Positions 44,755 to 46,688 of a DNA stretch of 64,000 nucleotides are shown here, one piece after another. The stretch is from Halomonas stenophila. Lineage in GTDB: Bacteria > Pseudomonadota > Gammaproteobacteria > Pseudomonadales > Halomonadaceae. A program made the translations under genes and the position numbers. The stretch spans positions 456,330 to 520,329 of the forward strand of contig NZ_JACHXR010000002.1 of assembly GCF_014192275.1 (NCBI RefSeq). Reading direction: 5' to 3'. The notes beneath the pieces were generated by a model. That model saw nothing but the letters and a program-made list of their open reading frames with translations. It was not told the DNA's origin and ran no database searches. Numbering within the stretch: position 1 is the first letter of the stretch; each line of letters opens with the position of its first letter.

Positions 44755-45849
44755 ATGCGCAAGTCCAACCGCAAGGGCAGGCGGGTCTCGCTGGTGCTGG
44801 GCAGTGGCGGTGCTCGAGGCTATGCCCATATCGGGGTGATCGAGGAGCTGGAGGCCCGGGGCTACGAGATCGTGGCCATGTCCGGGTGCTCCATGGGCGC
44901 CCTGGTCGCCGGCGTGCATGCGGCGGGACAGCTCGACCGCTATCGCGACTGGGTGTGCCAGCTGGACTACTTCGACGTCCTGCGCCTGGTGGATGTGACC
45001 TGGAGTCCCATGGGGGCCATGAAGGCCAGCAAGGTGATGAACAAGCTCGACGAGCTGGTCGGGGACATCCGCATCGAGGATCTGCCGATCCCGGTCACCA
45101 CCGTGGCGACCGACCTGGTGCGGCAGCGTGAGGTGTGGTTCCAGAGCGGGTCCCTGCTCGAGGCGATCCGCGCCTCCATCGCCGTGCCGGGGGTGATCAC
45201 GCCGGTCCACCAGGGCGAGCAGGTGCTGGTGGACGGTGGGCTGCTCAACCCCTTGCCCATCACGCCGACGGTGTCGACCCGGGCGGACTTCGTCATGGCG
45301 GTCAACGTGACCGCCCACAGCCCCGAGCCGGTGAGCCTGGAGTCGCTGCTGTCCCCGGACGAGGCCGCCAAGGAGCAGGCCAGGGAGGAGGCCCGCGACC
45401 GGGGCGGCGCGGTGGACTTCGGCGGCTGGATGGATGGGGTGAAAGGCGCGACCCGGCGGCTCTTCGAGGGCTTCGGCGGCGGCGCCGAGGGCGACGAGGA
45501 CGACAGCCTGGCCCGGGGGCGCCGCGCCTGGGGGCGGCTGGACATGATGCTGGCCTCCTTCGACATCACCCAGGCGGCGCTGGCCAAGTACAAGCTGGCG
45601 GGCTATCCCCCGGATGTGCTGATCGAGGTGCCCAAGACGGTCTGCGGCGCCTACGAGTTCCATCGTGCCGAGGCGCTGATCCTGCTGGGGCGCCACCTGG
45701 CCAAGGAGGCGCTGGATCGACGCGAGGAGGGGGTAGGCCTCGCCGGCAGCAGCCTGGTGGTGGAGCCGAGGGCCGATGCCGCGGACGACGAGCCGCTGCG
45801 GATCGAGGAGACAGGCACCGAGACGGTGGCGCCGGACGACCGGGCCTAG
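44755..45849 (+). CDS. Patatin-like phospholipase
   Basis: A 364-residue patatin-fold acyl hydrolase (RssA-like). The oxyanion motif is GSGGARGYAHIG (about 16-27), the nucleophile motif G-x-S-x-G is GCSMG (Ser near 47), and the catalytic Asp is in DGG (VDGGLLNP). No signal peptide is seen, so it is cytoplasmic or membrane-associated. ATG 44755 follows AGGGGAGG. The C-terminal 40 residues are acidic and poorly conserved. The stop codon TAG lies in the CTAG end of the MITE-like element. Confidence 0.9.
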   Translation: MRKSNRKGRRVSLVLGSGGARGYAHIGVIEELEARGYEIVAMSGCSMGALVAGVHAAGQLDRYRDWVCQLDYFDVLRLVDVTWSPMGAMKASKVMNKLDELVGDIRIEDLPIPVTTVATDLVRQREVWFQSGSLLEAIRASIAVPGVITPVHQGEQVLVDGGLLNPLPITPTVSTRADFVMAVNVTAHSPEPVSLESLLSPDEAAKEQAREEARDRGGAVDFGGWMDGVKGATRRLFEGFGGGAEGDEDDSLARGRRAWGRLDMMLASFDITQAALAKYKLAGYPPDVLIEVPKTVCGAYEFHRAEALILLGRHLAKEALDRREEGVGLAGSSLVVEPRADAADDEPLRIEETGTETVAPDDRA

Positions 45850-46116
45850 GGCGCGTTAACAATCGCACGCACGTTGCGCCGGAGCCGGTGGTTGTGCAGA
45901 TCGCGGCGTGAACGACGTGGCTTGGTGCTGCCAAGTGAGTCGTGAACAACAAAGAGCTGCGCAGCCACCGGCCCGGCCCTTCGGGTTGCGCCTCACCAGG
46001 CGTCATGCGGCGTTGACGGCCTGGTCAAGGGAACCACCCTTGACGGCGGCCGTCGCCTGGCCTGACGCCTGGTGAGACAGCAACGCCATCGGCGGACGAT
46101 TGTTAACGCGCCCTAG
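45846..46116. mobile_element. MITE-like element with 20-base terminal inverted repeats
   Basis: A 271-base non-coding element. Left end CTAGGGCGCGTTAACAATCG (45846-45865) and right end (46097-46116) are exact inverse complements. CTAG is palindromic, so the repeats may be a 16-base terminal inverted repeat flanked by a 4-base CTAG target duplication. Internal nested inverted repeats: 14 bases at 45992-46005 with 46063-46076; GACGGCC 46015-46021 with 46048-46054; GTCAAGGG 46024-46031 with 46037-46044. No transposase is encoded. It sits between convergent genes whose two stop codons fall inside the two CTAG copies. The ends resemble those of IS5-group elements, which often target CTAG (from memory). 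Confidence 0.7.
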
Positions 46117-46688
46117 CCCTCGCCACGGCGACGCCGCAGCAGCACATAGACCGCACCGGTACCGCCGTCGACCTCGCTGGCCGAGCAGAAGGCCAGCACG
46201 CTGGGCCACTCGCGCAGCCAGGCATTCACGTGGCTCTTGATCACCGGGTAGTCGGCGGTGCTGCCCCAGGCCTTGCCGTGGACCACCAGCACGCAGCGTG
46301 CCTGGGCCGCCAGGGCGTCGGCCAGGAAGGCCTCGAGTTCGCTGCGTGCCTCCTCCAGGGTGTGGCCGTGCAGGTCGAGGCCGGCCGCCCAGGGAATCTG
46401 GCCGCGCTTGAGCTGGCTGCGGGTGCGGTAGGGTAGGTCGGGCAGGGCGAAGTCGAGATACTCGGACGGCCGTACCGCCTCGACGCGGCCATCGGAGGTG
46501 CGACCGCCGGCGACGCCCTCGCGGGCGGCGGTGGCCGCGGCACGGCGCTCCCGGGCCGCCTCGTCGGCGCGCCGGGGGCGTCCCGGATCGGCCCGGTTGC
46601 TGTGGATCGGGCGCACGCCGGCCTCGCTCAGGGCCTGACGAAAGGCACTGATCTCGTCGGCGTCCGGGCGTTGGCGGCGTTGGCTCAT
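46113..46688 (-). CDS. Smr-domain DNA endonuclease-like protein
   Basis: A 191-residue protein with a C-terminal Smr domain (about 105-185): the [19 protein letters not shown] start and VVHGKAWGS, matching the conserved L-D-L-H-G and H-G-K-G motifs of SmrA/SmrB (MutS2 C-terminal type) nucleases. E. coli SmrB acts on stalled, collided ribosomes; SmrA is less well understood. ATG 46688 was chosen because [20 protein letters not shown] resembles the family N-terminus. Its TAG falls in the CTAG of the neighbouring MITE-like element. Divergent from prmB. Confidence 0.87.

Follow-up and report, generated by a model that had tools for sequence, protein, structure and literature searches.

We identified a 265-bp element between two convergent genes in the genome of Halomonas stenophila. 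With a probability of about 0.8, it is a non-autonomous miniature element (MITE) with IS5/IS427-type ends that is moved by a transposase acting in trans into targets that are mostly CTAG. The element is short, lacks a transposase gene, possesses terminal inverted repeats and is present in several copies, and its empty sites, together with the accompanying target duplication, were found in relatives. The window, which is the whole stretch of 64,000 nucleotides that was analysed, comes from a genome of 4.34 Mb in 34 contigs (the own genome, G000); all other G numbers denote compared genomes.

Ends, boundaries and target duplication

The earlier note had described a repeat-bounded non-coding element between two convergent TAG stops, and this description was confirmed. 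The 20-base ends, CTAGGGCGCGTTAACAATCG (from 45846) and CGATTGTTAACGCGCCCTAG (up to 46116), are exact inverses of each other, and no open reading frame of at least 60 amino acids in the ORF list of the window lies wholly within the element. The sequence also folds strongly: single-strand folds of the 271 bases fell far below those of shuffled sequences (z = -13.8 and -13.0 on the two strands), with 0 of 200 shuffles equally low. At the window locus, the third base of both TAG stops comes from the element, one from each end (Table 1). Gene ends were taken from a simple codon-based caller, not from an annotation, and the Smr domain was assigned by profile (PF01713, E 3.2e-25).

Table 1. Positions in the window of the element, its parts and its flanking genes
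Feature	Position	Strand	Remarks
Mobile element proper	45849..46113	.	265 bp, GGGCGCG...CGCGCCC; bounds from filled/empty comparisons at other copies
Left target dinucleotide copy TA	45847..45848	.	
Right target dinucleotide copy TA	46114..46115	.	
Left terminal inverted repeat GGGCGCGTTAACAATCG	45849..45865	+	
Right terminal inverted repeat	46097..46113	-	Identical 17 bases on the minus strand
First inner hairpin	45874..45984	.	Alignment columns 28-139; RNAalifold and pair counts
Second inner hairpin	45985..46084	.	Alignment columns 140-240; RNAalifold and pair counts
Patatin-type gene (putative, name from the earlier note)	44836..45849	+	TAG stop 45847-45849; its final G is the element's first base
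Smr-domain gene	46113..46688	-	Ends with the TAG complementary to 46113-46115; gene and element share their last base

Because CTAG stands at both element ends, the window locus alone is compatible with a duplication of either CTAG or TA. The copy in G051 is bordered by GTAG on the left and CTAG on the right, and the empty relatives of this site read GTAG (G010 and G036) or ATAG (G012), with GTGG in G031. The mismatch between the two sides, together with the GTAG and ATAG of the relatives, indicates that the right C and the left final G belong to the element. The G047 copy on contig 10 has GC on both sides; this site is likewise occupied in the own genome, and it is empty with a single GC in G050 and G075. 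These two copies therefore define an element of 265 bp (45849-46113) and a target duplication of 2 bp (TA, once GC), and not of CTAG as had been proposed. CTAG is the usual target, in line with the earlier note, and targets were Py-TA-Pu with a TA duplication except for one copy at GC and one at GTAG. At the GC site, the gene ends in MARALA in the empty relatives vs MARAR (our own reading of the sequence) where the element is present, the new stop being a TAA in the element end. In some copies of the wider superfamily described below (L108, L208 and L210), the bordering dinucleotides are not TA/TA but CA/TG or GA/TC, which form inverted repeats with each other.

Copies, empty sites and the stops of neighbouring genes

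A genome search detected four full copies (97-100% identity), one split copy and one shrunken copy in the own genome, which bears out the earlier description of the element as MITE-like. The halves of the split copy lie at two contig ends and were counted as one copy because G047 has the same copy whole. Within the genus, a match was found in 9 of 90 genomes, the own genome included, and four of the nine (G017, G018, G042 and G088) contained only short or distant matches to the wider family. The shrunken copy (G000:C1:800957-801014, L007) is ~55 bp long, consists of the ends only and is located between divergent genes, away from any stop. Its counterparts with similar flanks, L016 and L023, are short in G075 and longer but deleted in G050, and the arms differ between species yet stay complementary.

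We compared the window locus with that of the relatives. It is empty in G047 and G050, where a single CTAG is the stop of the patatin-type gene only and the TGA of the Smr gene follows 3 nt beyond; empty sites, which the earlier note had suggested looking for, were also found elsewhere for other copies. In G075, the element occupies the same CTAG in the same orientation and is followed by CCTTCA, and the Smr gene keeps its TGA. The left element end of G075 was later split by an IS481-type IS (PF13011), which according to our own reading of the sequence duplicated ACTAGG. Compared with G075, the own genome is missing seven bases, GCCTTCA, between GCC repeats, and because of this loss the Smr gene ends on the element's TAG; its product keeps the final residues RRRRGEG, as in G075. 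The simplest order of events is probably one insertion followed by the 7-bp loss, with independent insertions or homogenised copies as possible alternatives. The distribution of filled sites speaks against this order, as it does not follow a tree: G000 and G075 carry the element at the window site, and G000 and G047 carry it at the GC site.

The earlier note had instead suggested an empty site with one CTAG common to both stops, copied by a 4-bp CTAG duplication. Had the 7-bp loss preceded an independent insertion in the own lineage, the site before insertion would indeed have been a CTAG common to both genes. Only 2 substitutions and a 19-bp loss separate the G000 copy from the G075 copy, vs a 3.8% difference between the Smr genes, which would fit an independent, recent insertion into the same CTAG, and shared CTAG stops occur elsewhere in relatives (in G047 at the C1 site and in G031 near the G051 site). 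However, in all three nearest relatives, whether filled (G075) or empty (G047 and G050), the Smr gene ends in its own TGA beyond the CTAG, and the G051 and G047 contig-10 copies are incompatible with a duplication of 4 bp. We therefore consider this view unlikely for the window locus, and return to an insertion into the stop of the patatin-type gene with a subsequent loss. The shared site was found instead for the copy at C1:327 kb, where the empty site in G047 is a single CTAG ending both convergent genes; in G075 and G010 this site has GTAG and a separate TGA. Thus, the element is neither a single copy nor devoid of empty sites in relatives, two outcomes that the earlier note had named as telling against it, and the third, flanking genes that do not meet at CTAG in relatives, was seen at the window locus but not for the C1 copy.

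A single CTAG serving as both stops of convergent genes was observed at L327:575-578 (G050), at L326:3077-3080 (G047) and in L134 near 1639 (G031). The earlier note had also pointed to such a pair at 95-98 of the window. The minus-strand gene does end there with TAG, but the plus-strand 'gene' is a short tail, reaching to 98, that directly follows a run of N and repeats the end of the gene preceding the gap, which makes the pair a doubtful example. The run of N is a scaffold gap just before position 1 of the window (upstream in G000:C2, L322), and the pair may be an assembly effect.

At the G051 site, the convergent gene stops early because of the element, and in G010 the same gene runs four residues further (YDES). 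The copies on C16 and C21 each adjoin a single gene at its TAG. In G047, C5 carries a deleted copy at the TAG of the left gene, and the facing gene ends on a TAA in the element end; in G000 and G050 this facing gene continues ~15 codons beyond that CTAG. Among the sites of the window subfamily, three have both stops on the element (window, C1 and G051), three have one (C16, C21 and G047 C5), and the remaining two, namely the GC site and the shrunken copy, have none. Both stops at once were seen in the window subfamily only, vs 64 sites of related elements. The suggestion that insertion at convergent stops is harmless holds at the window locus, where both proteins keep their ends, but it is not general: two convergent genes are shortened (G051 and G047 C5), and the G005 IS described below lies inside at least one gene. 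Other short inserts were also noted. At a CTAG where G000 and G047 have the element, G050 has a different palindromic insert of ~155 bp (G050:C44; L324, L004 site), and G039 contains elements of ~147 and ~248 bp (L052 and L071) with ends GGGAGCGTTAACAAT, the interior of the second being partly N.

We determined the frequency of CTAG in 464 kb of the own genome, comprising 20 stretches of 20 kb and the window. CTAG was observed 156 times vs 1376 expected from base composition, making it about nine times rarer. The 154 CTAGs outside the element included 21 inside coding sequence, 35 at one stop and 1 at a shared stop, the other 97 being intergenic. All five CTAG sites of the window subfamily are at a stop, compared with 36 of the 154 sampled CTAGs (p = 9e-4), and so are all four when the discovery site is left out (p = 0.004). 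Of 64 superfamily sites elsewhere, 12 coincide exactly with a stop vs 22 of 741 Py-TA-Pu sites in the same flanks, and a strict count, from which three sites with a right side other than TA plus purine were removed, gave 9 of 61 vs 22 of 429 non-coding sites. The p values for this superfamily bias (3e-6, 5e-4 and, for the strict count, 0.009) are too good, because sister species in several cases contribute one and the same site to the 64, and the sites are not independent. The context count left out L007, L016 and L023 (shrunken or deleted) and L213 (cut by a contig end) and included L119 and L122, which are partial copies with hand-set bounds. These results indicate that the end-of-gene bias is real but modest. 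The rarity of the target in genes, together with survival, can explain much of it, and the bias may reflect survival rather than targeting.

Candidate transposase and proposed route of insertion

A full IS with the same ends was sought, as the earlier note had advised. No transposase gene with the exact 17-base ends was found in the own genome or among the printed ends of the inspected transposase relatives, but an IS5-type IS with similar ends is present in G005. This IS is 831-838 bp long, with ends GGGTGCGTTAACAATTG and GGGAGCGTTAACAATTA (end type GGGWGCGTTAACAATT), and has a two-ORF transposase with the domains PF13340 (DUF4096) and PF01609/PF13586 (DDE; DDE_Tnp_1). Compared over 19 bases with the element, it has 2 mismatches in one end and 3 in the other. 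Ten of its 12 one-end matches were inspected; the target was CTAG in nine and CTAA in one. Two of these ten copies lie at a TAG stop (one of them that of a weakly scored ORF) and six between genes, and one lies clearly and another doubtfully inside a gene. Among the relatives of this transposase, 60 of 80 from named genomes were inspected, and only ends with TA were considered; inverted repeats of at least 11 points were found at 37 of the 60 loci, mostly beginning TAGGG and spanning 811-878 bp. Relatives of the G005-type IS occur in Vreelandella and Halomonas. The own genome contains only three weak relatives of the transposase (29-33% identity), two of which show other ends, and a further mark of a MITE, an autonomous IS with the element's ends, was not found in this genome. 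Compared at the sequence level, the ends of the element are similar, not identical, to those of ISs with DUF4096 and DDE_Tnp_1 domains, which are of the IS5 family, IS427 group type. Inserts of ~1-2.3 kb at the L003 site were considered as the autonomous partner and rejected: those of G047 and G050 hold extra genes, and the gap of G075 contains neither a called gene nor a searched end pattern.

IS630/Tc1-mariner-type transposons duplicate TA and favour CTAG. The TA duplication and CTAG target of the element would fit membership in this type, and a Halomonas IS630-type element duplicating TTAA, as described in PMC3606827, was counted for it. Such membership is nonetheless highly improbable, as the full-length IS found through the end pattern has an IS5-type transposase (DUF4096 and DDE_Tnp_1), not one of IS630, and relatives of that transposase have ends similar to those of the element.

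From the observed copies, targets, duplication, empty sites and stops, we propose that an IS427-type transposase supplied in trans would insert the element into Py-TA-Pu, mostly CTAG, duplicating TA. Because the element ends begin with G, each junction reads TA+G, that is TAG, on the inward strand. An in-frame target TAG or TAA would thus be rebuilt as TAG, a gene arriving from the opposite side in the matching frame would also gain TAG, and a gene in another frame would meet the TAA in the element end (GGGCGCGTTAA). CTAG is rare in this genome, above all within genes, and roughly one in four of its occurrences is a stop codon; surviving insertions would therefore often be found at gene ends, and survival is presumably the main cause of the stop bias. 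At the window locus, the target would have been the CTAG stop of the patatin-type gene, with the TGA of the Smr gene adjoining, and the 7-bp loss, probably later, would have put the Smr end on the element. The rule that follows is simple. Since Py-TA-Pu itself comprises two overlapping stop codons and TAG is restored by the element's first base, the element can enter a stop codon on either strand and leave the protein unchanged, and every IS5-type element offers a case for examining this rule.

The wider superfamily, its fold and known systems

A superfamily consensus of ~269 bp matched genomes both in the taxonomic family (63 of 275, in 7 of 24 genera) and in a sample of the class (53 of 369, in 44 of 272 genera), the own genome being included in both counts and many of the class matches covering only part of one hairpin. 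Only the best two candidates per genome were scored in the family- and class-wide searches, so the superfamily copy numbers are lower bounds. Relatives that span the full consensus are carried by plasmids in Azotobacter chroococcum (77%), Pseudomonas aeruginosa (78%) and Halomonas sp. PA16-9 (84%); nothing is annotated beneath these three matches, and the consensus had no match in a phage collection. Full superfamily copies are mostly 266-272 bp long with both TAs, with exceptions of 250, 255, 284 and 296 bp. Apparent end-switching in the g46 genomes (L360, L362 and L363) was dismissed, as the outer bases show the usual TA-GAGCCTRTC-type end.

We examined the fold in an alignment of 23 hand-picked sequences, in which 96.6% of the cells were paired. 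Both-side changes were detected in 48 of 88 pairs (237 cells); shuffled controls gave 28 pairs (60 cells), and sliding the partners gave 11-20 pairs (21-44 cells). Twelve sequences from across the class showed both-side changes in 66 of 97 predicted pairs, a count made without a shuffle control. Among the 70 pairs common to the predictions for the two strands, 29 cells held G.T and 24 held A.C; this fair count replaced a first one of 137 to 29, which carried a bias since the structure prediction had used that same strand. Since G.T and A.C are nearly equal in the both-strand pairs, neither strand is favoured as RNA, and the RNA reading was dropped. As far as the G.T/A.C test can say, the fold is kept at the DNA level. 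Besides selection, arm-to-arm palindrome correction could be a source of the covariation pattern.

The very stable fold on both strands and the both-side changes are what one would expect if the sequence were a structural RNA or a bidirectional terminator between convergent genes, repeated by chance. This is improbable in view of the copies at unrelated places with clean empty sites and the lack of a favoured strand. Moreover, searches of the element for terminators with a T run and for promoters found none, and no Rfam family scored above its gathering score with the window copy or with one relative (L110). Sub-threshold hits to Rfam microRNA models were taken as chance matches on long hairpins. 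The mobile element thus remains our reading, and we tentatively extend it: the window element may be a branch of an undescribed mobile family of near-fixed length that is spread over much of the Gammaproteobacteria, its two-hairpin fold kept by compensatory change on both strands and serving as a working DNA part (a hairpin or cruciform substrate), its ends drifting with the transposases and acting as portable stop codons. We found no description of the superfamily in the literature on Halomonadaceae, on IS5/IS427 or covarying MITEs, on convergent stops and on stop-codon MITEs, a literature taken mostly from outside subscription journals. If this extension is true, the fold is a working part and not the leftover of an IS. 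The superfamily also raises the question of what preserves length and fold, in so many genera, in a miniature element that is supposed to be passive.

Among known systems, the element is like the MITEs of the IS5 family, IS427 group in its TA duplication, its Py-TA-Pu target, its ends of the form TA-GGG..GT.., its lack of genes and its location mostly outside genes. IS5 is described as preferring Py-T-A-Pu, with CTAG most often used (PMC5493358), and the IS427-group ISs covered in PMC3281130 have 2-bp repeats in most cases and lengths of 832-865 bp, some with two overlapping ORFs. Unlike these MITEs, the element has no IS with identical ends among those found and an interior unmatched to any IS seen here, and it combines a length near 269 bp (with both TAs) with a fold conserved over many genera. 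Among bacteria, MITEs that have TA at their termini and transcripts forming hairpins are well documented (PMC2229807, PMC10969869). The Correia/NEMIS repeats of Neisseria are likewise small, with terminal inverted repeats and TA termini and with transcripts predicted as long stem-loops (PMC2229807), but they belong to another host group and measure about 107-155 bp, as compared by description and Rfam. YPAL/RU-2 and ERIC share with the element the character of palindromic mobile repeats; YPAL differs in having termini without TA and duplications of 3-26 bp, according to the account in PMC2229807, and ERIC insertions at gene 3' ends are reported in PMC10969869, along with another MITE mainly in 3' untranslated regions. 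For REP sequences as IS targets, harmlessness has likewise been argued for sites between convergent genes (PMC1525189). In the REP case, however, an IS enters a palindrome, whereas here the target is the stop codon itself, rebuilt by the element end.
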